From the NCBI GenBank assembly GCA_015056865.1, contig SVFM01000008.1:1-64000 (forward strand): a stretch of 64,000 nt of DNA. Direction: 5' to 3'. A program made the translations under genes and the position numbers. Positions 32,005 through 64,000 of this stretch are shown here, piece by piece (the first letter of the stretch is position 1; every line of letters begins with the position of its first letter). The notes under the pieces were generated by a model. That model saw nothing but the letters and a program-made list of their open reading frames with translations, did no database searches and was not told the DNA's origin. Origin of the DNA: Lachnospiraceae bacterium. GTDB lineage: Bacteria; Bacillota; Clostridia; Lachnospirales; Lachnospiraceae.

Positions 32005-32988
32005 ATGAGCAAAAAATTTCAGGAGTTGGATTTGAAGGATGCTTTTCTTTTTTCTGCTGCAGTGCAGGATGAAAAGACATGTGGAATGATATTGGAGGTT
32101 CTTTTGGGGCGGCAGGTACCTAAAGTAACTGTGCGGGCAGAGGCAAGCATGCTATATCATTCAGATTTTAGAAGTGTTCGTTTGGATGTGTATGCAAATG
32201 ATGAGATGCAGGTGGCTTACAACCTGGAAATGCAAAACACGGATAATAACAATTTAGCCAAACGTAGCCGATACCATCAGGCGGAAATGGATTTGACATC
32301 TCTAAAACCAGGAGAAGATTTTCGAGAATTAAAGCCCTGTTATGTGATTTTTATTTGTACATATGACCCTTTTAAAAAAGGAAAATACCGCTACACATTT
32401 GAAAATAGATGTCTGGAAGAAGATTTTCCTTTGGGAGATGAAACAACAAAGGTTTTCTTGAATACGAAAGGTACAAATAAAAATGAGGTTCCTGAGGTAT
32501 TGGTTAATTTTCTACATTATGTAGAAAACAGTACAGATGAATACGTGAGTACCATTGAAGACCATACAATTGAAAAAATACATGAAAATATTGTTCAGCT
32601 AAAGAAAAGCAGATTATGGGAGGGCCGATACATGAAATTTGAGGAAATTCTTCGAGAGGCAGAAGAAAATGGTTTAAAACGAGGTATGATAAAAGGCCTG
32701 GAAGAAGGATATCAACAGGGCATGGAGCAGGGCATGCAGCAGGGCTTAGAACAAGGCATGCAGCAGGGCTTAGAACAAGGCATGCAACAGGGCTTAGAAC
32801 AAGGCATGCAACAGGGCTTAGAACAAGGCATGCAACAGGGCTTAGAGCAGGGCATGCAGCAAGGCCGAGATCTATTAATCAAGCTCATAGATTGCATGGC
32901 AGTAGCAGGAGAAGGAAATCAGATTGCAAAGTTAAGTAATTCGGATTTCTTACAGCATATGTTACAAAAATATAATCTAAAAATCTGA
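32005..32988 (+). CDS. Rpn family recombination-promoting nuclease / putative transposase (PD-(D/E)XK)
   Basis: LKDAFLFSAAVQDEKTCGMILEVLLGRQVPKVTV, VRLDVYANDEMQVAYNLEMQN; QGMQQGLE-repeat tail. Confidence 0.88.
   Translation: MSKKFQELDLKDAFLFSAAVQDEKTCGMILEVLLGRQVPKVTVRAEASMLYHSDFRSVRLDVYANDEMQVAYNLEMQNTDNNNLAKRSRYHQAEMDLTSLKPGEDFRELKPCYVIFICTYDPFKKGKYRYTFENRCLEEDFPLGDETTKVFLNTKGTNKNEVPEVLVNFLHYVENSTDEYVSTIEDHTIEKIHENIVQLKKSRLWEGRYMKFEEILREAEENGLKRGMIKGLEEGYQQGMEQGMQQGLEQGMQQGLEQGMQQGLEQGMQQGLEQGMQQGLEQGMQQGRDLLIKLIDCMAVAGEGNQIAKLSNSDFLQHMLQKYNLKI
32715..32871 (+). repeat. In-frame 24-bp tandem repeat (GGCATGCARCAGGGCTTAGARCAR), five full units plus partial ends
   Basis: Full units at 32731, 32755, 32779, 32803 and 32827, encoding GMQQGLEQ. 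Confidence 0.95.
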
Positions 32989-34045: not shown

Positions 34046-34069
34046 GTCGAAGTAACATAAGTGAATATT

Positions 34070-34260
34070 GCGATGTCAGGTGTCCGGCGGATATATATCA
34101 GGGCCGGATGAAAAGGGAAGCAGGTGCAAGTCCTGCACGATCTCGTCGCTGTAAGTAGGGAGTGCTCCTCCATTGATGTCACTGGAATTTGTTCTGGGAA
34201 GGCGGAGGTGCGCAGTGATCTATAAGTCAGAAGACCTGCCTGTCATTCGGTACTGAGTAA
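34070..34260 (+). ncRNA. Cobalamin (B12) riboswitch
   Basis: GGGAAgcAGGTGcAAGTCCTGCacGATCtCGTCGCTGTAAgtaGGGA ... GATGTCACTGg ... TGGGAAGGcggaggtgcgcaGTGATctATAAGTCAGAAGACCTGCCTG. Confidence 0.97.
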
Positions 34261-38512: not shown

Positions 38513-40885
38513 CTATTTGAATGTCACAATGGTGACGCCGGCATCGCCTTCTCCGTGCTCGCCCAGGCGATATTCTTTTACGTATTTCAAACGCTTTAGG
38601 TGTCCGTGTACGGCGCTTCGAAGAGCGCCGGTTCCTTTACCGTGCACCACCCGCACACTGGAAAGACGGGCCAGATAGGCATCGTCTAAATATTTATCCA
38701 GAGCAGCGATGGCTTCGTCTGTTGTCTTACCCAGAAGATTGATCTCCGGAGAGATGGTCAGAGATTTACTCAGCTTCATCTTACCGGTGCCGCCGCCAAA
38801 GGAAGAGACAGCAGGTATCGTATCTTCCTTTATCAACACCAGGTCGGATACATTGACCTGAGAGCGGATAATGCCGCATTGTACAAACAAATTGCCTTTT
38901 GCATCCGGCAGGGTGCTGACGGTTCCCTTCAGGCCCATGGAAAGGATTTTCACGGTCTCTCCCTTTTTTATTTTTTTAGGATCCAGGGTTTTTTGTGGAG
39001 GCTCGGCCTTTTTCAGGCTGAGCTTTGTATTTTTCTCATCAATCTTACTTCTAAGATTCTGACGTTTCTTCTCCAACTCTCGGATGTCTGTGCCATTTTG
39101 AAGTTTCTGGAAATCTCGAATGGTTTCATCCGCCATATCCTTAGCTTCCTGCAAAATTTTTTTGGCTTGTTCGTTGGCTTCCCGGAGAATACGGTCTCTG
39201 GCAGTATCCAGCTTTTCATTTTTTGCTTTCAGCTGGCCTTCCAGAGTCTTGATACGCTCCTTGTACTGGGCAATCTCCCGGTGTTCTTTTTCAATAGTCA
39301 GTCGGCTGGCTTCCAGGTCTGCAATCACATCCTCAAAGCTTTCATCTTCCTTGCTGATCTGCTCCTTGGCGGCAGCAATGATCTCATCCGACAGCCCCAG
39401 TTTGGAAGAAATGGCAAAGGCGTTGCTCTTGCCGGGAATACCGATAAGCAAACGGTAAGTAGGCCGCAGGGTCTCCACGTTAAATTCGCAGCAGGCATTT
39501 TCCACAAAAGGCGTGGACAGGGCATAGAGCTTCAGCTCACTGTAATGGGTGGTGGCCATGGTCCGAATGCCCCGATCGTGCAAGTAATTTAAAATGGCGA
39601 TGGCCAGAGCGGCGCCTTCGGTAGGGTCGGTACCTGCACCCAGCTCATCAAACAGGCATAAAGAGTTTTCGTTGGCCTTTTCCAGAATATTGACAATGGT
39701 GGTCATGTGGGAGGAAAAGGTACTAAGGCTTTGTTCAATGCTCTGTTCATCCCCGATGTCTGCATAAACTTCTTCAAAAACAGAAAGTTGGGAACGATCC
39801 AGAGCAGGAATGTGAAGACCGGCCTGGCCCAGCAGGGTAAAGAGTCCCACTGTTTTTAAGGAAACGGTCTTACCGCCGGTGTTGGGGCCGGTAACAATGA
39901 GCAGATCAAAATCTCCGCCCAAATGGATATCGATAGGAACCACTTTCTTTTTATCCAACAGGGGATGCCTGCCCCCCCGGATATGGATATAGTGGTCAGT
40001 ATTAAAAATCGGTCTGGTGGCATTTTGCTCCATAGCCAGCTTGGCCTTGGCAAAAGCAAAATCCAGCCGCGTCATCATCTGTTGATTGGTACGAAGTTCC
40101 TCCGCGTGCTCTCCGGTCTGGGCACTTAAAGAGGCCAGGATGATCTCGATTTCTTCCTGTTCCTTCAGTGCCAGCTCCTTTAATTGGTTGTTCAGATTCA
40201 CAATGGCAGCAGGTTCAATAAAGAAGGTAGAGCCGGAAGAAGACTGGTCATGGATCATACCGGACACCTGACTTTTGTATTCGGCTTTTACCGGGATGCA
40301 GTAGCGGTTGTCCCGCATAGTGATCACTGCATCTTGCAAAAAGCTACGGTAAGAGCCAGTTACCATAGAGCTTAGCTGGGAATGGATCTTTTCCCCGGTG
40401 GCTTTGATCTGTCGGCGAATATTTTTTAATGTAGGGCTGGCATCATCCGCTATCTCTTCTTCAGACAAAATACATCTGTGAATTTCATTGGCGATCTGGG
40501 TCAAAGGGGTCAGCGCCTCAAAGCAGGGATCCAGACTATCCTCAGGAGTTTCTTCTTTCTCTTTTTTGCCGTAGGTTTTGATACGGCCTACGTTGTCAAG
40601 AAAAGCAGCAATCCGAAGAAGTTCCGGAGCTGACAGGCTGCTGCCGATCTCCAATGAGCGTATAGCAAAACCAAGCTCTTTGTTATTGCCAAAAGAAGTG
40701 CTTCCGCAACGAAACAGACGGGCCAGTGCGTCTGCCGTCTCTGTTTGCGCTATATTTATCTGATGGATATCCGTGCATGGAACCAACTCCTCGCAGAGTA
40801 TCTTGGCGGGCTGAGAGTCCGCTTTTTCTGCCAGAAGTGCAAGGATCTTATTATATTCTAATGTGCGTAGTACTTTTTCGTTCAT
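38513..40885 (-). CDS. mutS2: Endonuclease MutS2
   Basis: MNEKVLRTLEYNKILALLAEKA; VTGPNTGGKTVSLKTVGLFTLLGQAGLHIPA; C-terminal Smr domain. Confidence 0.97.
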   Translation of the reverse strand: MNEKVLRTLEYNKILALLAEKADSQPAKILCEELVPCTDIHQINIAQTETADALARLFRCGSTSFGNNKELGFAIRSLEIGSSLSAPELLRIAAFLDNVGRIKTYGKKEKEETPEDSLDPCFEALTPLTQIANEIHRCILSEEEIADDASPTLKNIRRQIKATGEKIHSQLSSMVTGSYRSFLQDAVITMRDNRYCIPVKAEYKSQVSGMIHDQSSSGSTFFIEPAAIVNLNNQLKELALKEQEEIEIILASLSAQTGEHAEELRTNQQMMTRLDFAFAKAKLAMEQNATRPIFNTDHYIHIRGGRHPLLDKKKVVPIDIHLGGDFDLLIVTGPNTGGKTVSLKTVGLFTLLGQAGLHIPALDRSQLSVFEEVYADIGDEQSIEQSLSTFSSHMTTIVNILEKANENSLCLFDELGAGTDPTEGAALAIAILNYLHDRGIRTMATTHYSELKLYALSTPFVENACCEFNVETLRPTYRLLIGIPGKSNAFAISSKLGLSDEIIAAAKEQISKEDESFEDVIADLEASRLTIEKEHREIAQYKERIKTLEGQLKAKNEKLDTARDRILREANEQAKKILQEAKDMADETIRDFQKLQNGTDIRELEKKRQNLRSKIDEKNTKLSLKKAEPPQKTLDPKKIKKGETVKILSMGLKGTVSTLPDAKGNLFVQCGIIRSQVNVSDLVLIKEDTIPAVSSFGGGTGKMKLSKSLTISPEINLLGKTTDEAIAALDKYLDDAYLARLSSVRVVHGKGTGALRSAVHGHLKRLKYVKEYRLGEHGEGDAGVTIVTFK

Positions 40886-40911
40886 GTGATACCTCAGTAA
40901 GAAAATAAAGT

Positions 40912-41100
40912 GGCGGGGAGTTTTTCTTCGGTCGGGGGTGTGTCCGGTAACAGGGCAGGGCTCTCAATGAAGGACCCTTGAAAGACGTCGGAATCGAGTC
41001 TAGTGTCCGCTACGTATTTCACGGAGCGAAAGCGCGTCCAAATGAGAGCCCTGCCCTGTTACCGGACACACCCCCGACCGAAGGAAAATTTCTCGCCGCC
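40912..41100 (+). other. Structured intergenic element E1 (long-arm hairpin with conserved core)
   Basis: 41-bp perfect inverted repeat 40926-40966 / 41043-41083, outer GGCGGGGAG / CTCGCCGCC. Core shares CCCTTGAAA..ACGT and TTTCACGGAGCGAAAGCG with E2 and E3. Confidence 0.9.
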
Positions 41101-42171
41101 TTATTTTCTTTTTATGGATTCCTCTATCAAAGAAACAATGGTCTCTATGGCGTTCTTCTGCTGGCTCCGGCGCATGTTGTCTACAAAGGACTGCCGGTTG
41201 CAGTAAAGCTCCTGTACCTTTTCTACAAGCAGATTTTCTGTCAGGTAATCTTCATCGATGACAATGGAAAAGCCCTGCGATTCAAAGGATCTGGCATTCA
41301 AAATTTGATCACCCCGGCTACTGGCTGCCGGCAAGGGGATCAGAATATTGGGCTTGTGTAACGCCAAAAGCTCGCAGATAGCGTTGGCCCCTGCCCGGGA
41401 GATCACGATGTCTGCCATTGCAAAGATATCTTTTAACTCTTCCTTCAAATATTCGAATTGCTTGTAACCTTCCACGTTCAACAAAAGATTGTCTATCTTG
41501 TCTTTGCCGCATAAATGAACCACCTGGAAGTCGTCCAGAAGTTTAGGCAGCGCCTGACGGACAGCTTTGTTTATCGCAGCAGCACCAGAGCTTCCGCCCA
41601 CTACCATAATAACGGGTTTATTCGCTGTAAAACCGCATAGATTCAGGGCGCTGATCCGGTTGCCCTGAGTCAGCTCCCCGCGGATAGGGGATCCTGTCAG
41701 AACTGCTTTGTCTGCAGGCAGACAGGACAGGGTCTCAGGGAAGTTGCAACAGACTTTCCGGGCCACAGGAATACAGAGCTTGTTGGCCAAGCCCGGGGTC
41801 ATGTCGGATTCATGAATAATGCAGGGGATTTTTTGAGAAGCGGCAGCCCGTACCACGGGTACACTGACAAAGCCCCCTTTGGAAAAGACAATATCCGGTT
41901 TCAGCTGTTTCAGTATTTTCTTGGCATCACTGTAACCTTTTAGAATTCGAAAAGGGTCCGTGAAATTCTTGGGGTCAAAATATCTGCGCAGCTTGCCGGT
42001 AGAGATTCCGTAATAGGGAATGTTAAAGTCTTCGATCAGACGTTTTTCAATGCCGTCGTAGGATCCGATGTAATGAATCTCGTACCCCAGCTCTTTCAGG
42101 CGGGGCAGCAGTGCTATGTTTGGCGTAACGTGTCCGGCAGTTCCGCCGCCGGTTAAGACAATCTTTTTCAA
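41101..42171 (-). CDS. murG: UDP-N-acetylglucosamine-N-acetylmuramyl-(pentapeptide) pyrophosphoryl-undecaprenol GlcNAc transferase
   Basis: KIVLTGGGTAGHVTPNIALLPRLKELGYEIHYIGS; ISRAGANAICELLALHKPNILIPLP. Confidence 0.95.
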   Translation of the reverse strand: MKKIVLTGGGTAGHVTPNIALLPRLKELGYEIHYIGSYDGIEKRLIEDFNIPYYGISTGKLRRYFDPKNFTDPFRILKGYSDAKKILKQLKPDIVFSKGGFVSVPVVRAAASQKIPCIIHESDMTPGLANKLCIPVARKVCCNFPETLSCLPADKAVLTGSPIRGELTQGNRISALNLCGFTANKPVIMVVGGSSGAAAINKAVRQALPKLLDDFQVVHLCGKDKIDNLLLNVEGYKQFEYLKEELKDIFAMADIVISRAGANAICELLALHKPNILIPLPAASSRGDQILNARSFESQGFSIVIDEDYLTENLLVEKVQELYCNRQSFVDNMRRSQQKNAIETIVSLIEESIKRK

Positions 42172-45620: not shown

Positions 45621-45825
45621 CAGGCGTTTGAAAAATCAGGCTGGCCGGGGTGCAGGGATCTAACAGGGCGTCGATAGGCCCTTGAAAAACACCGGCACTT
45701 GATTTTCTCAAGCAATGTGCGTCGAGAAAATCTTAGTACCGTTGTGTTTTTCGCGGAGTGAAAACGTGCCTGAGACGCCCTGTTAGATCCCTGCACCCCG
45801 GCTAACCTGATTTTTCGAACACCTG
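45621..45825 (+). other. Structured intergenic element E2
   Basis: 52-nt arms 45621-45672 / 45774-45825, innermost 29 bp perfect, four mismatches overall. Core GGCCCTTGAAAAACACC...CTTAGTACCGTTGTGTTTTTCGCGGAGTGAAAACGTGCC. Confidence 0.9.
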
Positions 45826-45858: not shown

Positions 45859-47208
45859 ATGAGTGCAAAAGTAACATTTGACTATTCAAAAGCAGGCGCT
45901 TTTATTTCCGCATCTGAAGTGGAGAAGATGAAAAAGATTGCGTTGGACGCGAAGGATGTATTGGTTGGTAGAAGCGGTGACGGCAGTGATTATCTGGGAT
46001 GGATTGATCTGCCCGTAGATTATGATAAAGAGGAATTTGACAGGATCAAAAAGGCAGCACAGAAGATTACCCAGGACAGCGAGGTGCTGGTAGTCATCGG
46101 TATTGGAGGATCCTATCTGGGAGCCAGAGCCACCATTGAATTTTTGGGGCACAGCTTTTACAATGTGCTGGATCCCAGTGTCCGTAAGACACCGGAAATC
46201 TATTATGCGGGAAATTCCATCAGCACGACTTATTTGAAGGACCTGATCCAGGTGATCGGTGACAGAGATTTTTCTGTGAATGTGATTTCTAAGTCCGGTA
46301 CCACAACGGAGCCGGCTATTGCGTTCCGTATCTTTAAGGAGTTGCTTGAAAAGAAGTATGGCAAGGCAGAAGCGGCAAAGCGTATTTATGCCACCACTGA
46401 CAAGGCCCGTGGGGCGCTGAAGAAGCTGGCTGACGAGGAGGGGTATGAGACTTTTGTAGTACCGGATGATGTGGGCGGCAGATACTCTGTGCTCACTGCA
46501 GTAGGATTATTGCCTATTGCAGTCAGCGGTGCAGACATCGATCAGCTGATGGCAGGTGCGACAAGTGCCAGAAAGCGTTGTCTGGAGAGTTCTTTTGAGG
46601 AAAATGATGCCCTGCAGTACGCAGCTTTGCGTAATATACTGATGCGCAAGGGCAAATCTGTGGAGATTCTGGCCAATTATGAGCCTCGTGTACACTACGT
46701 GTCTGAGTGGTGGAAGCAGCTTTACGGGGAGAGCGAGGGCAAAGACCAGAAGGGTATCTTCCCCGCCAGTGTGGATCTGACAACAGATCTGCATTCCATG
46801 GGTCAGTTTATTCAGGATGGCGCCAGGATTTTGTTTGAGACCGTTATTGAGATTGAAAATTGCGATGAAGAGCTAATCATCGGTGAAGAGCCTGTAGATT
46901 TGGATGGTCTGAACTACTTGGCCGGCCAGAACCTGGATTTTGTCAACAAGAGTGCTATGAATGGTACGATTCTGGCACATACCGACGGGCAGGTACCCAA
47001 TTTTATGGTGAAGATTCCCAAGGCCAATGAGTTTTATTTGGGTGAGTTGTTCTACTTCTTTGAGTTTGCATGTGGTGTCAGCGGCTATATCAATGGGGTA
47101 AATCCTTTTGACCAGCCCGGTGTGGAGAGTTACAAGAAGAACATGTTTGCACTCCTTGGCAAGCCCGGCTATGAGGCTCAGAGAGCGGAATTAATGAAAA
47201 GGCTGTAA
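45859..47208 (+). CDS. pgi: Glucose-6-phosphate isomerase
   Basis: [50 protein letters not shown]. Confidence 0.97.
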
Positions 47209-49518: not shown

Positions 49519-49714
49519 TAATAAATCATCGAGAGGTGGGTCTGGGGTTCGGGGGCAAGGGGGCAGAGAAAGGCCCTTGAAAAACGTCAGCACTTGGATT
49601 TTTCAAGCTTTTGCGCAGGGAAATCCTTAGTACCGTTACGTTTTTCACGGAGCGCAAGCGTGCCTAAGCTACCCCCTTGCCCCGAACCCCAGACCACCTC
49701 TCAATGATTCACTA
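49519..49714 (+). other. Structured intergenic element E3
   Basis: Arms 49519-49566 / 49669-49714, near-perfect complement. Core GGCCCTTGAAAAACGTC...CTTAGTACCGTTACGTTTTTCACGGAGCGCAAGCGTGCC. Confidence 0.9.
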
Positions 49715-49732: not shown

Positions 49733-50206
49733 ATGTTAGAGCATTTTTACAAGCCTCCCCATGCTGTGGCAACACTCAAGGGAAGCAGAGAATATCCAAA
49801 TATAAATGGGACTGTGGGTTTTTATCAGACCGGGCAGGGTGTGCTGGTGACGGCTGAGGTCACAGGTTTGCCGGCAGCCTCGGACAGATGCGCCAGTCCT
49901 ATTTTTGCATTTCATATCCATGAGGGAGGGCGTTGCACCGGCATTGAGACGGATCCCTTTGCTGATGTAGGCTCACATTATAATCCGGAAGGCTGTCAGC
50001 ATCCTTATCATGCGGGGGACCTTCCACCTTTATTTGGCAACAATGGTTATGCCTTTTTGGCGTTGGTGACAGATCGATTTACAGTCAGTGAAATCCTTGG
50101 AAAGACGGTTATTATTCACAGCCAGCCGGATGATTTTCACACCCAACCGGCAGGAGGGGCCGGTGCTAAGATCGCCTGTGGAGAGATTCGCAGCCGGTGG
50201 ATGTAA
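49733..50206 (+). CDS. Cu/Zn superoxide dismutase-family protein, no signal peptide
   Basis: FAFHIHEGGRCTG...DVGSHYNPEGCQHPYHAGDLPPLFGNNGYAFLALVTDRFTVSEILGKTVIIHSQPDDFHTQPAGGAGAKIACGEI. Confidence 0.9.
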   Translation: MLEHFYKPPHAVATLKGSREYPNINGTVGFYQTGQGVLVTAEVTGLPAASDRCASPIFAFHIHEGGRCTGIETDPFADVGSHYNPEGCQHPYHAGDLPPLFGNNGYAFLALVTDRFTVSEILGKTVIIHSQPDDFHTQPAGGAGAKIACGEIRSRWM

Positions 50207-50254: not shown

Positions 50255-51250
50255 ATAGAATTCCTCTGCGGAACGGATGAACTATGAGATACAAAAAATC
50301 ATTAAAAGAACTTACCATCAAGGATAATTTCCTGTTTGGGGCGGTAATGAGTGACGAGGAGAACTGCCGCTGTCTTCTGGAATTGATTCTGGCCACATCC
50401 ATTTCACGGGTAAAAGTGAATAAAGAAAAAAGCATCGTATATCATCCGGGATATAAAGGGATACGGCTGGATGTTTATGCGAGAGATGAGAACAACACCC
50501 GTTATAACGTGGAGATGCAGACCTTGCATAAGCCGGCCCTGGGAAAAAGGGCCCGCTATTACCACAGCCAGATTGATATGGAGCTTTTGCAGGCCGGGGC
50601 AGATTATTCTGAACTGCCGGATACGTATGTGATCTTTATTTGTGACTTTGATCCTTTCGGTGCAGAAAAGTACGTCTACAGTTTTGAGAACAGTTGTCGG
50701 GAGGCGAAGGACGTAAAGCTACGGGAGGGAAGCAAGAGTATCTTTCTAAGCACCTGTGGAACCAATCCCCAAGAGGTATTCCGGCCTATGGTAAAGTTTT
50801 TAAACTATGTGGGTGCGAACCTGAAAAGCAGCACAGAAGATTTTGAAGGTCCCTTTGTGGCCAAGCTGCAAAGAAGTGTGCAGACTGTGAAGGAAAGCAG
50901 AGAACTGGAGGAGCAATACATGCTGTTTGAAGAAATGCTTAGAGATGAAAGAGCAGAAGGAAAGGCGGAAGGAAAGGCGGAAATTCTAATCGACATCTTA
51001 CAGGAACATGGCCCGGTTTCTGCAAGTCTGCAGGAAAGAGTTTTTGCCCAGACAGATCCGGAGATCCTCAGAAGTTGGATTAAAGTAGCAATACATGCAC
51101 AGTCTGTGGAACAATTTGAAAAAGATATCATGTCTTAATTATATGTAAAGATTCTAGATGTTTCCTGCAGGGCGATAAGACCTTGCGGGACATCATCTTC
51201 TTATTCATGCCTGTTCAGGCAATCAATTATCAAAAGAGCAGAGGAATTCT
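50255..51250. repeat. 15-bp perfect inverted repeat bracketing Rpn copy A
   Basis: ATAGAATTCCTCTGC (50255-50269) and GCAGAGGAATTCTAT (51236-51250). Confidence 0.85.
50284..51138 (+). CDS. Rpn family nuclease/putative transposase, copy A
   Basis: LKELTIKDNFLFGAVMSDEENCRCLLELIL; IRLDVYARDENNTRYNVEMQTLHKPALGKRARYYHSQIDMELL. Confidence 0.92.
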   Translation: MRYKKSLKELTIKDNFLFGAVMSDEENCRCLLELILATSISRVKVNKEKSIVYHPGYKGIRLDVYARDENNTRYNVEMQTLHKPALGKRARYYHSQIDMELLQAGADYSELPDTYVIFICDFDPFGAEKYVYSFENSCREAKDVKLREGSKSIFLSTCGTNPQEVFRPMVKFLNYVGANLKSSTEDFEGPFVAKLQRSVQTVKESRELEEQYMLFEEMLRDERAEGKAEGKAEILIDILQEHGPVSASLQERVFAQTDPEILRSWIKVAIHAQSVEQFEKDIMS

Positions 51251-51394: not shown

Positions 51395-51743
51395 ACACGA
51401 TACGACGGTTGCCAGAATTGTCTCCGCTTTTGGCGTAAAAGTGATCTTCCATTCTGTCACTGGCAAGAGCAGTGTACAGAGTATGAGCAGGTAGATAAGG
51501 AAACCTTGTTGCGAGAGAGCGATTTCTTGCCCCTGTATTGTTCCTTAAGCAGGCTAAAAGACAGCAATCAGATCATCATTACCCTTCATCTGGGCTGGGG
51601 CAGCGTGGAGGTCCGGACCAGATGCGTCAATAAGGTATACAAAAATATTCAAAGTTTCTTAAATGGAGTGCACCGGTAATAAAGCGGATTCCTTTGCGGG
51701 TGCCAGGATCGCCTGTGGAGAAATCCGTAGCTGCCGGATGTAA
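51395..51743 (+). pseudogene. Relic of a duplicated D-2-hydroxyacid dehydrogenase plus SOD-family pair
   Basis: CCAGAATTGTCTCCGCTTTTGGCGTAAAAGTGATCTTCCATTCTGTCACTGGCA... matches 49000-49060; GACAGCAATCAGATCATCATTACC...GTATACAAAAATATTCAAAG matches 49335-49435; ATCGCCTGTGGAGAAATCCGTAG...GGATGTAA matches the SOD 3' end. Confidence 0.9.
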
Positions 51744-51814
51744 TATTTGCATAAGGTTGACAAGCCTGTCCAATCATAGTACAGTATAAGAATAGAACAT
51801 AAGGATGGTGTACT

Positions 51815-57854: not shown

Positions 57855-58033
57855 AATAATAGTACCTCATTTACGGTTATATGTGGTTAGCGAAGCGGTG
57901 GAGCTGAAATAGGCTGAGGAAAAAAGAAAAGGCCAAACTGCTTCACAGATCCTATTATAACTTGTTTTTGCGAATTTGGCCATAATTTTTTTACGTTATT
58001 GCGTAACCGTACATTTTGTGTTACAATTTTCTT

Positions 58034-59056
58034 ATAGAATTCCTCTGTGGAACGGAGGAACTATGAGATACAAAAAAACCTTAAAAGAACTTACCATCAA
58101 GGACAATTTCCTGTTTGGGGCGGTAATGAGCGATGAAGAAAATTGTCGCTGTCTTCTGGAATTGATTCTGGGCACATCTCTTTCACGGGTAAAAGTGAAT
58201 AAAGAAAAGAGCATCGTATATCATCCGGGATATAAAGGGATACGACTGGATGTCTACGCCGGGGACGAGAACAACACCCGTTATAACGTGGAGATGCAGA
58301 CCTTGCAAAAGCCGGCGTTGGGAAAACGGGCCCGCTATTACCACAGCCAGATTGATATGGAACTTTTGCAGGCTGGGGCAGATTATTCCGAATTACCGGA
58401 TACGTATGTGATCTTTATTTGTGACTTTGATCCTTTCGGTGCAGGAAAGTACGTCTACAGTTTCGAGAATAGTTGCCGGGAGGCTAAGGATGTAAAACTG
58501 CGGGAGGGAAGCAAGAGTATCTTCCTAAGTACCCGTGGAACCAATTTTCAGGAGGTATCCCAGCCTATGGTAAAGTTTCTGGACTATGTGGGAGCAAACC
58601 TAAAAAGCAGCACGGAAGATTTTGAAGATGCCTTTGTGGCAAGACTTCAGAGAAGCGTGCAGTCTGTCAAGGAAAGCAGAGAACTGGAGGAACGTTACAT
58701 GTTGTTTGAAGAAATGCTGAGAGATGAAAGAGCAGAAGGAAAAGCGGAAGGAAGAGCTAAAGGAAAAGCAGAAGCGGTTCTGGACATTCTGTTAGATATC
58801 CTGCAGGAGCTTGGTCCGGTATCTGCAGATCTGAAGGAAAAGATCTTGGCGCAGTCAGATGCGGAGATTCTTAGAAGCTGGGTCAAGGTAGCAATACGTG
58901 CACAGTCTGTGGAGCAATTCGAAAAAGATATCATGTCTTAATATTAAGTAAAGATTCGGATGTTTCCTGCGGGGTGTGCAAGACCTTGCAGGGGCGTCAT
59001 CTTATTATTCATGCCTGTTCAGGCAATCAATTATCAAAAAAGCAGAGGAATTCTAT
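58034..59056. repeat. Inverted repeat bracketing Rpn copy B (14/15)
   Basis: ATAGAATTCCTCTGT (58034-58048) and GCAGAGGAATTCTAT (59042-59056). Confidence 0.8.
58063..58941 (+). CDS. Rpn family nuclease/putative transposase, copy B
   Basis: Near-identical to copy A over most of its length (LKELTIKDNFLFGAVMSDEENCRCLLELILGTSLSRVKVNKEKSIVYHPGYKGIRLDVYAGDENNTRYNVEMQT). Confidence 0.92.
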   Translation: MRYKKTLKELTIKDNFLFGAVMSDEENCRCLLELILGTSLSRVKVNKEKSIVYHPGYKGIRLDVYAGDENNTRYNVEMQTLQKPALGKRARYYHSQIDMELLQAGADYSELPDTYVIFICDFDPFGAGKYVYSFENSCREAKDVKLREGSKSIFLSTRGTNFQEVSQPMVKFLDYVGANLKSSTEDFEDAFVARLQRSVQSVKESRELEERYMLFEEMLRDERAEGKAEGRAKGKAEAVLDILLDILQELGPVSADLKEKILAQSDAEILRSWVKVAIRAQSVEQFEKDIMS

Positions 59057-59249
59057 TATTGTATCTCGGGAGCGGCCGACGAAAATTGTTTTCTTATATC
59101 AAAAAACATATATGCATAGTGTATATTTGTATTGGAAACGCTATAACAGTTGATTTATAATTTAAGTAACCATGGTGGAAGCTACAATAAATAGCTCCGT
59201 GGTTTTGGCTTAATATCATAATTTGCAAGATGAGAAAAGAGGTAAGGCT

Positions 59250-60593
59250 ATGGTAAAGTGTGGATTTTATGAAGCCGACATTACAGGCCCTTTGGGATGT
59301 AACATGATTGGATACAACAAAAAAAGGGTGTCTGACGGTGTGCTGGAAAAGCTGTATGCAAAAGCATTTGCAGTGGATGTGGATGGCGTTTGCGGTATTG
59401 TGATCTCCATCGATGCGGAGTTTACACCCCAGAGTGTACATGACGTGGCGGTAGAAAGAATTACTGCGGCCACAGGGATTCCCTCAGATCGGATTTTGAT
59501 CAATGCAACCCATACGCATACAGGAGGCCCCTTGGGTGTTGGTGGCGGTGTATTCTACACTCCGGATCCGGAGTACAATGATATTTTGTGTCGGATCGTG
59601 GGAGACAGTGGTATTTTGGCTTATCAGCGTATGCAGCCCGCAGGAGCAAAAGTGGCAAGAAAAGATGTGTACGGCATATCCTTTATCCGTAATTACAAGA
59701 TGAAGGATGGCCGAATCTGGATGAATCCGGGCTGGCAGAATCCGGATGTAGTAGAGCCCTTCGGAGAGTTGGATCCGGAGCTTGCAGTCATGTTTATCTG
59801 CGATGAGCAGGATCGTCCCATGGGTGCGCTGGTAAACTATGCCTTGCATCATGACTGTGTTTCCAACAGGTACCATTGTACCAAATACTGTAGTGATTAT
59901 TCCGGTATCATGTCTAAGGAATTGAAAAAGACCTATGGACAGGATTTTGTTACGGTAATGATCAATGGCTGCTGCGGCAATATCAATCATTTTGATATCA
60001 GCAGAACCTTTGATGACTTTTTCGCTGATCCGCCCTACATCCGTATTGGACAGCGTCTGGCAGACGAGGTGCGTAGCCTTTATGAGGAGGCGAAACCTCT
60101 GGCAATCACTGCGGTGGATGGTAAAAAGGAGATTGTAGAGATTGAGAGAAGACAGGTGCCTGATGAGGAAGTGCAGATTTACAAAGATTTGATTAAAAAG
60201 TATCCTACCACAGAAGGTTTGCAGCACAGCTTCCTCGATCCCAATGGGGATGGATGGAGACGTAAACGAGCAGAGGCCATATTGAATTTTGTGCAAAGAC
60301 CCGATAAGTTACCCGTGGTAGCACAGGCTCTGCGGATTGGCGATTGCATGATGTATGCCGTAAGTGGCGAGGTATATTCAGAATTTGGACTTTATATGAA
60401 GAGGAACTCTCCTTGTGACTTCAATATGGTAGCTGAGATGGCTAACGGAGGCGAGTCCTGTTACATACCCACTCCTCAAGCTTTTGGAACAGAACTTTAT
60501 GAAGCCCAGATTCCCACCTCCAAACTGATCCCTCAGGGCGGATACATTATGGCAGACCATGCGTTAGAAATGGCAAGGGAACTGGTGAAATAA
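59250..60593 (+). CDS. Neutral/alkaline ceramidase-like N-terminal domain protein, paralog 1
   Basis: MVKCGFYEADITGPLGCNMIGYNKKR; INATHTHTGGPLGVGG; YALHHDCVSN; NGCCGNINHFD. Confidence 0.85.
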   Translation: MVKCGFYEADITGPLGCNMIGYNKKRVSDGVLEKLYAKAFAVDVDGVCGIVISIDAEFTPQSVHDVAVERITAATGIPSDRILINATHTHTGGPLGVGGGVFYTPDPEYNDILCRIVGDSGILAYQRMQPAGAKVARKDVYGISFIRNYKMKDGRIWMNPGWQNPDVVEPFGELDPELAVMFICDEQDRPMGALVNYALHHDCVSNRYHCTKYCSDYSGIMSKELKKTYGQDFVTVMINGCCGNINHFDISRTFDDFFADPPYIRIGQRLADEVRSLYEEAKPLAITAVDGKKEIVEIERRQVPDEEVQIYKDLIKKYPTTEGLQHSFLDPNGDGWRRKRAEAILNFVQRPDKLPVVAQALRIGDCMMYAVSGEVYSEFGLYMKRNSPCDFNMVAEMANGGESCYIPTPQAFGTELYEAQIPTSKLIPQGGYIMADHALEMARELVK

Positions 60594-60608
60594 GAAAGGG
60601 CAGACATC

Positions 60609-61952
60609 ATGGTAAAATGTGGATTTTATGAAGCAGATATTACGCCCCCTTTGGGATGTAATATGAGTGGCTATTTCAAGAGAAGAATTTCGACCGGGGT
60701 GCTGGAAAAACTCTATGCAAAAGCATTTGCAGTAGAAGCAGATGGGATTTGCGACATTGTGATCTCCATTGATTCGGAATTGGTACCCAAATCCATACAT
60801 GATGTAGCAGTGGAAAGAATTGCCCAGGCTACAGGGATTCCTTCCGACAGGGTACTGATCAATGCAACCCATTCCCATACAGGTGGAGCATTGGGTGATA
60901 AAGAAGACATGGTTTATACTCCGGATCCCATTTATAATAATGTTTTGGGTAGAATCGTGGGCGATTGCGGCATTCTGGCCTATCAGCGTCTGCAGCCGGC
61001 AGGGATTAAAGTGGCTAAGAAGGACGTGCACGGGATTTCTTTTATCCGCAATTATGTGATGAATAACGGCCAGGTGTTTATGAATCCCGGCTGGCAGAAT
61101 CCGGAGGTGAAGGAGCCTTTCGGAGAGTTGGATCCGGAGCTTGCAGTCATGTTTATCTGCGATGAGCAGGATCGTCCCATGGGAGCACTGGTAAATTACG
61201 CGCTGCATCATGACTGTGTTTCCAACTGGGAACATTGCACCAAGTATTGCAGTGACTATTCCGGCATCATGTCCAAGGAATTGAAAAAGACCTACGGACA
61301 GGATTTCGTCACAGTAATGGTCAATGGCTGTTGCGGTAACATCAATCACTTTGATATCAGCAGAACCTTTGATGACTTTTTTGCAGATCCGCCTTACATC
61401 CGCATCGGGCGGCGTCTGGCAGATGAAGTGCGTAGTCTTTATGAGGAGGCAAAGCCTCTGGCAATTACTGCAGTGGATGGAAAGAAAGAGATTGTAGAGA
61501 TCGAGAGAAGGCAGGTTCCCGAGGAAGAAGTTCAGATTTACAAAGATTTGATGATAAAGTATCCCACTACAGAAGGTCTGCAGTACAGTTTCCTTGATCC
61601 CAACGGGGACGGCTGGAGGCGCAAGCGTGCGGAATGGATATTGGAATTCGTGGAGGAGCCGGAGAAGTTGCCCATGGTGGTGCAAGCTTTGAAGATCGGT
61701 GATTGTATGATATATGCAGTGAGCGGCGAGGTTTATTCGGAATTTGGTCTTTATATGAAGAAGAATTCGCCTTGCGCCTTTAATATGGTTGCAGAGCTGG
61801 CCAACGGTGGTGATCCCTGTTACGTACCTACACCGCAGGCGTTTGGAACAGATCTTTACGAAGCCCAGATTCCTTCTTCCAAACTGATCCCTCAGGGCGG
61901 ATATATTATGGCAGACCATGCGTTAGAAATGGCAAGGGAACTGGTGAAATAA
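60609..61952 (+). CDS. Neutral/alkaline ceramidase-like protein, paralog 2
   Basis: MVKCGFYEADITPPLGCNMSGYFKRR; INATHSHTGGALG; close similarity to paralog 1. Confidence 0.85.
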   Translation: MVKCGFYEADITPPLGCNMSGYFKRRISTGVLEKLYAKAFAVEADGICDIVISIDSELVPKSIHDVAVERIAQATGIPSDRVLINATHSHTGGALGDKEDMVYTPDPIYNNVLGRIVGDCGILAYQRLQPAGIKVAKKDVHGISFIRNYVMNNGQVFMNPGWQNPEVKEPFGELDPELAVMFICDEQDRPMGALVNYALHHDCVSNWEHCTKYCSDYSGIMSKELKKTYGQDFVTVMVNGCCGNINHFDISRTFDDFFADPPYIRIGRRLADEVRSLYEEAKPLAITAVDGKKEIVEIERRQVPEEEVQIYKDLMIKYPTTEGLQYSFLDPNGDGWRRKRAEWILEFVEEPEKLPMVVQALKIGDCMIYAVSGEVYSEFGLYMKKNSPCAFNMVAELANGGDPCYVPTPQAFGTDLYEAQIPSSKLIPQGGYIMADHALEMARELVK

Positions 61953-61968
61953 AAAAGAGGAATACAGT

Positions 61969-63312
61969 ATGGTAAAATGTGGATTTTATGAAGCAGATAT
62001 TACTCCCCCTTTGGGATGTAATATGATTGGTTATTTCAAGAGAAGAATTTCAGACGGCGTGTTGGAAAAACTTTATGCAAAAGCATTTGCTGTGGATGTA
62101 GACGGAGTTTGTGGCATTGTGATTTCTATTGACGCTGAACAGGTGCCTCAGAGTGTGCATGATGTAGCTGTGGAAAGAATTACTGCGGCAACAGGAATTC
62201 CCTCCGACCGGATTTTGATCAATCCAACTCACACCCATACCGGAGGCCCTTTGGGTGATCACGGAAATGTGTATTATACGCCGGACCCCTATTACAATGA
62301 TATTTTGTGCAGGATCGTGGGAGACTGTGGCATTCTGGCTTATCAGCGTCTGCAACCTGCAGATGCCAAGGTGGCCAAGAAAGATGTGTACGGTATTTCC
62401 TTTATCCGCAATTATGTCATGAAAGACGGCAGAGTATTTACGAATCCTGGCTGGCAGAACTCGGAGATCAAGGAGCCCTTCGGGGAGTTGGATCCAGAGT
62501 TGGCGGTAATGTTTATTTGTGATGAGCAGGATCGTCCCATGGGTGCGCTGGTGAATTATGCGCTGCATCATGATTGTGTTTCCGACAGTAAGCACTGCAC
62601 CAAGTACTGTAGCGACTATTCAGGTATCATGTCCAAGGAGTTGAAAAAGACTTACGGACAGGATTTTGTTACAATAATGGTCAATGGATGTTGCGGTAAT
62701 ATCAACCATTTTGATGTGAGCAAAAGTTTTGCAGACTTTTTTGCAGATCCCCCCTATATTCGCATCGGAAAACGGTTGGCGGATGAGGTGCGTAGCCTTT
62801 ATGATGAGGCAAAGCCTCTGGCAATTTCCGTGGTGGATGGCAAAAAGGATATCATAGAAATAGAAAGAAGACAGGTTTCTCCGGAGGAAGTGCAGGAATA
62901 TAAAGACTTAATTAAGAAATATCCTTCTATGGAGGGGCTGTATTACAGTGTTCATGATCCCCACGGAGAGGGCTGGAAACGTAAGCGTGCAGATAATGTA
63001 TTAAAGTTTGTGGAGAAGCCGGATAAGCTGCCTATGGCAGTGCAGGCGTTGCGAATCGGGGATTGTATGCTGTATGCGGTAAGCGGCCAGTTGTATTCCG
63101 AGTTCGGCCTTCATATGAAGAAGAATTCTCCTTCTGCCTTTAATATGGTTGCAATGATGGCCAACGGCGGTGACCCCAATTACATACCTACACTTCAGGC
63201 ATTTGAAATGGACCTTTATGAGGTACAGGTTCCTACCTCCAGCCTGATTCCTCAAGCTGGATATATGATAGCAGATCATGCGTTGGAGTTGGCTAAGGAA
63301 CTGGTAAAATAA
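61969..63312 (+). CDS. Neutral/alkaline ceramidase-like protein, paralog 3
   Basis: MVKCGFYEADITPPLGCNMIGYFKRR; INPTHTHTGGPLGDHG. Confidence 0.85.
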   Translation: MVKCGFYEADITPPLGCNMIGYFKRRISDGVLEKLYAKAFAVDVDGVCGIVISIDAEQVPQSVHDVAVERITAATGIPSDRILINPTHTHTGGPLGDHGNVYYTPDPYYNDILCRIVGDCGILAYQRLQPADAKVAKKDVYGISFIRNYVMKDGRVFTNPGWQNSEIKEPFGELDPELAVMFICDEQDRPMGALVNYALHHDCVSDSKHCTKYCSDYSGIMSKELKKTYGQDFVTIMVNGCCGNINHFDVSKSFADFFADPPYIRIGKRLADEVRSLYDEAKPLAISVVDGKKDIIEIERRQVSPEEVQEYKDLIKKYPSMEGLYYSVHDPHGEGWKRKRADNVLKFVEKPDKLPMAVQALRIGDCMLYAVSGQLYSEFGLHMKKNSPSAFNMVAMMANGGDPNYIPTLQAFEMDLYEVQVPTSSLIPQAGYMIADHALELAKELVK

Positions 63313-63328
63313 GAAAGGTAATAAAATC

Positions 63329-64000
63329 ATGGTAAAGTGTGGATTTTATGAAGCGGATATTACACCTCCTTTGGGTTGTAATATGCGTGGCTACAATCGC
63401 AAAAGAGTGGCGGACGGTGTGTTGGAGAAACTCTATGCCAGAGCCCTGGCAGTGGATGTGGATGGAGTTTGCGGCATTGTAATTTCTATCGATGCGATTG
63501 GAACACCACAAGCAATACATGATGTGGCAGTGGAAAGAATTGCTGCGGCCACAGGGATTTCCTCCGACCGGGTTTTGATCAACGCAACCCATACCCATAC
63601 GGGAGGTCCCTTGGGGGGAAATATTGAACCCAACTATATAGCGGATCCGATTTACAATGATCTTTTGAGCCGCATTGTAGGCGACTGTGGTATTCTGGCG
63701 TATCAGCGCCTGCAGCCCGCAGGAGCCAAGGTGGGCAGAACGGATGTGCATGGTATTTCCTTTATCCGCAATTATGTGATGAAGAATGGCCAGGTTTGGA
63801 TGAACCCCGGCTGGCAAAACCCGGATGTAGTCGAACCTTTCGGAGAGTTGGATCCGGAGCTGGCAGTGATGTTTATCTGCGACGAGCAGGATCATCCCAT
63901 GGGAGCTCTCGTGAATTTTGGCCTACATAACGATTGTATTTCAGATAGAAAGCCTTGCACCAAATATTGTAGTGACTATGTGGGCATTCTGGCAAAAGAA
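63329..64000 (+). CDS. Neutral/alkaline ceramidase-like protein, paralog 4 (truncated by window end)
   Basis: Open frame to window end: MVKCGFYEADITPPLGCNMRGYNRKRVADGVLEKLYARALAVDVDGVCGIVISIDAIGTPQ...; not in the ORF track because no stop is reached. Confidence 0.88.
   Translation, partial: MVKCGFYEADITPPLGCNMRGYNRKRVADGVLEKLYARALAVDVDGVCGIVISIDAIGTPQAIHDVAVERIAAATGISSDRVLINATHTHTGGPLGGNIEPNYIADPIYNDLLSRIVGDCGILAYQRLQPAGAKVGRTDVHGISFIRNYVMKNGQVWMNPGWQNPDVVEPFGELDPELAVMFICDEQDHPMGALVNFGLHNDCISDRKPCTKYCSDYVGILAKE

Follow-up and report, generated by a model that had tools for sequence, protein, structure and literature searches.

The plus-strand region at 49531–49702 of the window (the 64,000-nt stretch of Lachnospiraceae DNA analysed here) is best read as an old copy, E3, of a non-autonomous MITE-like element of Lachnospiraceae. 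The element family, MITE-like with a conserved folded core, belongs to a known kind; its members are about 170–250 bp in size, multi-copy and devoid of an ORF. The explanation that we consider probable is that of a mobile folded module borne by a MITE, whose ends are spread by a transposase, whose core is kept by selection on its fold, probably as RNA, whose arms are homogenised, and which, as a hairpin in mRNA leaders, would alter the fate of the transcript. The covarying GNRA junction in carriers with unrelated ends is a variant on this known kind, found in neither Rfam nor the open-access literature searched.

Copies of the element in the window

The window contains three copies, E1, E2 and E3. 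E3 lies inside the leader of a Cu/Zn superoxide dismutase gene (49733–50206, plus strand; Pfam Sod_Cu, E 3e-27). Its core of ~95 nt (49571–49665, plus strand) is a three-way junction, the module common to all copies, and is covered by a covariance model match at 49559–49676 (122 bits). The core is enclosed by two outer arms that form an inverted repeat and the outer stem, a G-rich left arm at 49531–49566 and a C-rich right arm at 49669–49702 (both plus strand). E2 (45621–45825, plus strand; core 45677–45771) is a full copy with end motifs CAGGCGTTTGAAAAAT and CAGGTGTTCGAAAAAT, and is located in the leader of a glucose-6-phosphate isomerase gene (45859–47208, plus strand; Pfam PGI). E1 (40899–41110, plus strand) is a diverged copy with arms of 68 nt that are 91% complementary; it is antisense to, and immediately upstream of, a minus-strand gene that looks like mutS2 (38513–40885). 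With the whole unit as query, BLAST returned 48 matches in the own genome, at no fewer than 30 separate loci, and the number of dispersed copies, E3 included, is roughly 30–45.

Several other features of the window were recorded. Its only Rfam riboswitch is a cobalamin riboswitch at 34061–34257 (plus strand, 119 bits). A gene for a PD-(D/E)XK nuclease-family transposase (PF12784) occurs twice, at 50284–51138 and about 57983–58957, with similar flanks, and identity between the two copies is 81–94% in the pieces tested. A unit of roughly 1360 nt is present as four direct copies at 59233–63934, which run to near the window end and share 71–81% identity in the pieces tested. The segment at 51475–51760 is a partial duplicate of the ends of the hydroxyacid dehydrogenase and superoxide dismutase genes, 1.5–2.4 kb downstream of the originals, and 32666–32870 holds a 12-nt repeat array that is apparently coding.

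Structure of the folded core

The P1–P4 sequences quoted in the first-pass annotation are all found in E1, E2 and E3. Stem A is formed by AGGC (49571–49574) and GCCT (49662–49665), both on the plus strand; in the own-copy alignment it is 98.1% paired, with double changes in three of its four pairs. It is directly adjoined by Stem B (previously P2), whose 5′ strand spans 49575–49594 (plus strand) and whose first bases, CC, pair with GG at 49649–49650 in the wider alignment (pairs C49575–G49650 and C49576–G49649). The column pair equivalent to C49575–G49650 is CG in 101, UA in 14, AU in 5 and GC in 5 of the 125 rows of that alignment. The “GGA bulge” described previously is thus incorrect, its two G's pairing with C49575–C49576 and a single A being left at the junction. 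Stem B is followed by this unpaired A49651, by the P4 hairpin GC-GCAA-GC (49652–49659, plus strand; pairs G49652–C49659 and C49653–G49658, loop GCAA), and by two unpaired bases, and the arrangement of Stem A, Stem B and P4 therefore constitutes a three-way junction. P2 of E3 contains one A·C mismatch (A49589/C49634). The apical stem-loop (previously P3; 49596–49626, plus strand) differs between species, and E1, from which P3 had been reported missing, is indeed a copy without this stem.

The GNRA tetraloop of P4, first seen in E2 and E3, is present in all 98 distinct cores (GAGA in 46, GAAA in 35, GCAA in 9, GGGA in 3, GGAA in 3 and GCGA in 2). The change of a P4 stem pair with retention of the loop is likewise general, as the 2-bp stem covaries across the same cores (GC/GC 71, GT/AC 16, AC/GT 6, AT/AT 2, wobble 3) and its helix is 100% paired in the own copies. 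The outer P4 stem CAC/GTG suggested in the same annotation fared poorly, with zero double changes and pairing of only 85.9%.

The compact three-way junction with its GNRA loop is the fold that lay behind the earlier proposal of a cleavage test, and would be compatible with the core being a self-cleaving ribozyme. This is very improbable, however, given that none of the ribozyme models in Rfam matched, either at gathering score or to E 10, that an invariant catalytic-looking internal loop is absent, and that the majority of invariant core positions fall in the A/U stem. Rfam as a whole gave no match at gathering score at E3, where the best weak match, to a plant miRNA model (E 0.3), is attributable to chance.

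Covariation and distribution of the core

The compensatory substitutions that had been noticed by comparing three copies hold in larger alignments. In the own-genome alignment (A1, 26 copies), 95.3% of cells are paired, compared to 40–52% in slid versions, and double changes occur in 22 of 40 pairs, a number as high being reached in 0 of 500 shuffles. A wider alignment of 125 distinct rows, mostly from relatives, is 96.7% paired, compared to 34–53% when slid, with double changes in 37 of 40 pairs. Pairing of the core is far beyond chance in both.

A covariance model built from A1 located the core in 93 of 138 genomes belonging to the genus. Of 296 genomes sampled more widely, across the order, 23 contain it; these represent ten genera, all of one family. 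A pattern scan of named genomes gave matches only in MAGs/assemblies, nearly all labelled Lachnospiraceae or its genera. The sole match labelled Muribaculaceae shares 93–96% identical loci with a Blautia-labelled MAG and is probably mislabelled. A phage or plasmid origin was rejected, with no match among viral contigs, plasmids and phages.

RNA or DNA as the folded strand

Helix covariation alone is weak evidence for RNA, because template switching can produce double changes in palindromes. The arms of inverted repeats are known to be homogenised by such switching between DNA templates (PMC8604942). The core could, on this basis, be merely a DNA palindrome whose compensatory changes arose by template switching, with no folded RNA selected, an explanation that we consider unlikely. 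As helix covariation by itself leaves RNA selection unproven, the G-U and A-C mismatches were compared. Genus-wide, core mismatches comprise 74 G-U vs 19 A-C, or 49 vs 19 after one wobble-rich pair is dropped, an excess that comes in part from common ancestry and flexible apical positions. The own copies alone have 18 vs 10, which is not a significant excess. Mismatches in the outer arms number 33 G-U and 31 A-C, so that the arms show no RNA-strand bias.

This lack of a G-U preference in the arms is what a DNA palindrome would predict, and the scarcity of wobbles in the core helices of the own copies and the equal preservation of both leader orientations (see below) point in the same direction. 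On the other hand, the core retains its G-U excess when the wobble-rich pair is dropped, the local 2-bp stem of P4 covaries even though it lies outside the main palindrome and carries an invariably GNRA loop, and the core stays similar while the arms drift near unrelatedness. Together, the GNRA loop, the covarying isolated P4 stem and the G-U excess favour a fold of the plus strand, most likely as RNA. Thus, of the proposal in the first-pass annotation that RNA structure is selected in plus-strand sense, the part that the sequence comparisons support is selection on a core in which the plus strand folds, whereas RNA is likely rather than proven, since G-T also exceeds A-C in stability in single-stranded DNA.

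Outer arms

Mismatches between the two arms of a copy amount to ~5% near the core and rise to as much as ~17% outward. Arms of different copies are barely more alike than shuffled arms; a subset is still homologous, with 55–72% identity, and among significantly similar arm pairs 291 mirrored changes were counted vs 77 single changes. Of 27 copies, 26 have a G-rich left arm. Where terminal motifs can be recognised, their distance to the core is a near-constant 51–56 nt, and about 10 own copies have such motifs on either side. The idea that the arms were copied from the target site at insertion was rejected in view of their near-constant length, the homologous subset and the G-rich left arm. The pattern of changes suggests that the arms diverged in place and were repeatedly homogenised, and homogenisation at the DNA level fits their palindromy better than does selection on RNA.

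A conserved scaffold with copy-specific flanks is also reminiscent of a trans-acting guide-type RNA, in which variable arms accompany a fixed scaffold, as in the nuclease-associated omega RNAs. The variable arms are, however, complementary to one another, a nuclease gene was not seen beside the copies, and the ends are common to many coreless elements, all of which render such a role extremely improbable.

Ends, target duplications and transposase

The termini of recent copies in relatives are TAGGYRWTTGCGAAAC and its inverse, and TAGGYRWTTGCGAAAC is also found at both ends in about 10 own copies. These elements (type i) are flanked in relatives by target duplications of 10–11 bp. Among 35 elements with TAGGYRWTTGCGAAAC ends, many of them coreless, the mean TSD score is 4.57, compared to a null maximum of 1.06. 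Neither a clear TSD nor a recognisable TIR is present at E3 itself. An autonomous element bounded by the MITE ends, and lacking the core, was identified in G104; it encodes a 485-aa transposase that matches DUF772 (4e-11, above its cut-off) and gives a DDE_Tnp_1 signal. Inverted ends, target duplications and an autonomous partner in relatives, together with the multiple copies devoid of a transposase gene in the own genome, are characteristic of MITEs.

The own draft genome gave no match to the G104 transposase, and its single DUF772 transposase was rejected as a partner since the ends of that element, AAAAGAGGGTGTCCCAAAA, differ and do not fit. With no partner transposase, the own copies currently seem to be immobile, to the extent that a draft genome can show this. 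Separately, three loci (L142, L144 and L157) contain a 143-bp coreless G104 element with TAGGYAATTGCGAAAC ends and perfect target duplications of 10–11 bp, and several contig ends of G067 (L126, L127 and L145–L147) stop within another presumed autonomous element, whose ends are the same as those of the MITEs.

The same core in carriers with unrelated ends

The Blautia-labelled MAG and its sister carry the core in elements that end in CACGGAAATCAATTTTCAG and have a sharp 9-bp target duplication; flank identity is 74% at 9 bp, compared to at most 36% at any other length between 6 and 13 bp. This MAG contains core-bearing elements of both end types, on L052 and L072. On L072, the type i copy has an apical stem of the kind that belongs to the 9-bp elements, suggesting exchange. 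Core copies in G085 are flanked by a third end type, GGGGCTGTTGCAAAATAG. As the core is thus found in carriers with unrelated ends, its conservation cannot be explained by one transposase recognising it. A bolder reading, which we hold only tentatively and regard as somewhat doubtful, is that this GNRA three-way junction, conserved throughout the family, forms an RNA domain that is mobile independently of any one transposon, with a selectable RNA function of its own (such as the toleration or processing of insertions in transcripts), which is exchanged between MITEs with unrelated ends and copies of which have become fixed here in about 30 mRNA leaders.

Genomic placement

In the own genome, 30 of 31 copies are located within 80 nt upstream of a Shine-Dalgarno sequence and start codon, compared to 35% of random intergenic positions (p about 3e-13, for a null drawn from this window alone with simple gene calls). 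About a third of the own copies have clear promoters that end 0–12 nt ahead of the element. E2, for example, begins ~12 nt past a predicted −10, and this gpi promoter is conserved in relatives without the element. Convergent sites account for 1 of 24 sites in the own genome vs 10 of 26 in G081/82/85. These three observations would suit a domesticated cis-regulatory leader, by which about 30 genes are jointly controlled via the RNA core in a riboswitch- or protein-binding-like manner.

We do not claim such a leader, and consider it quite improbable, based on the mixed orientations and genes, the placement of copies in relatives, and equal pairing in antisense copies. A riboswitch or attenuator would be expected to have a fixed orientation and a common downstream function, but the own copies are sense to the gene in 17–18 cases and antisense in 13, and the downstream genes are mixed (gpi, sod, glmS, valS, argC, folP, mutS2-like and others; gpi and sod were named by Pfam and the rest from translations by eye). 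The antisense copies are as well preserved as the sense copies in the covariance-model alignment (p = 0.24), and this speaks against the element acting in place within the sense leader. A MAFFT alignment had hinted that sense copies were the better preserved, but the difference vanished in the model-based alignment. In 29 relatives the gpi leader holds no element, and an ancestral insertion at this gene was accordingly rejected. Copies in relatives are mostly nearer to 3′ ends, at a median distance of 11 nt vs 98 nt to 5′ ends. In two species, the same intergenic site of a folate operon (L015 and L205) is occupied in opposite orientation by copies with unrelated arms, as a result of either independent insertion or a flip.

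Proposed spread and action of the element

For the MITE-borne folded module, we propose that a transposase acting in trans on the ends would spread the element, and that the core would be maintained not by any single transposase but by selection for its fold, most likely that of an RNA. The long outer arms would remain palindromic mainly through DNA template-switch homogenisation. Once transcribed within a leader, the element would form a very long hairpin near the 5′ end of the mRNA. This hairpin may change the fate of the transcript, either by inviting double-strand cleavage by RNase III or by shielding the 5′ end, and the core could act as a processed or protein-bound RNA domain.

Bacterial MITEs are usually seen as passive ends with filler between them, whereas the filler is the best-conserved part of this element. 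The recurrence of the core fold in carriers with different ends and duplications makes the idea of an RNA cargo of small transposons directly testable. The arms provide a natural record of long palindromes that stay palindromic during sequence turnover.

Comparison with known systems

The partner transposase in G104, with its DUF772 and DDE_Tnp_1 signals, has IS1182 as its best NCBIfam match (NF033551, E 7e-22), but its score of 78 bits against a family cut-off of 270 indicates a distant relative rather than a clear member of the IS1182 family. The BOX and RUP repeats of pneumococci are small interspersed repeats of a Firmicute that form stem-loop RNAs and are probably mobilised by host transposases, in which respects they are similar to the element here. 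They are set apart, by description, by their modular layout.

The bcr1–bcr18 repeats of the Bacillus cereus group (PMC3446304) are also dispersed; some are MITE-like, some have a conserved secondary structure, and they are often transcribed in UTRs. The MITE-like bcr1–3 and the conserved-RNA bcr10 and bcr18 are described as separate families (PMC3446304), whereas both properties are combined in one element here, a distinction that is again based on description. Parallels can also be drawn with the IS-derived bacterial MITEs, such as QMITE2 of Coxiella and the Correia elements of Neisseria (PMC10969869), which are likewise short, ORF-less and intergenic, with inverted ends, target duplications and an autonomous partner, and whose transcripts fold into a stable hairpin. 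Unlike these, the Lachnospiraceae element contains a conserved internal module that has undergone strong compensatory evolution and is common to carriers with unrelated ends, and its arms are near sequence saturation yet palindromic.
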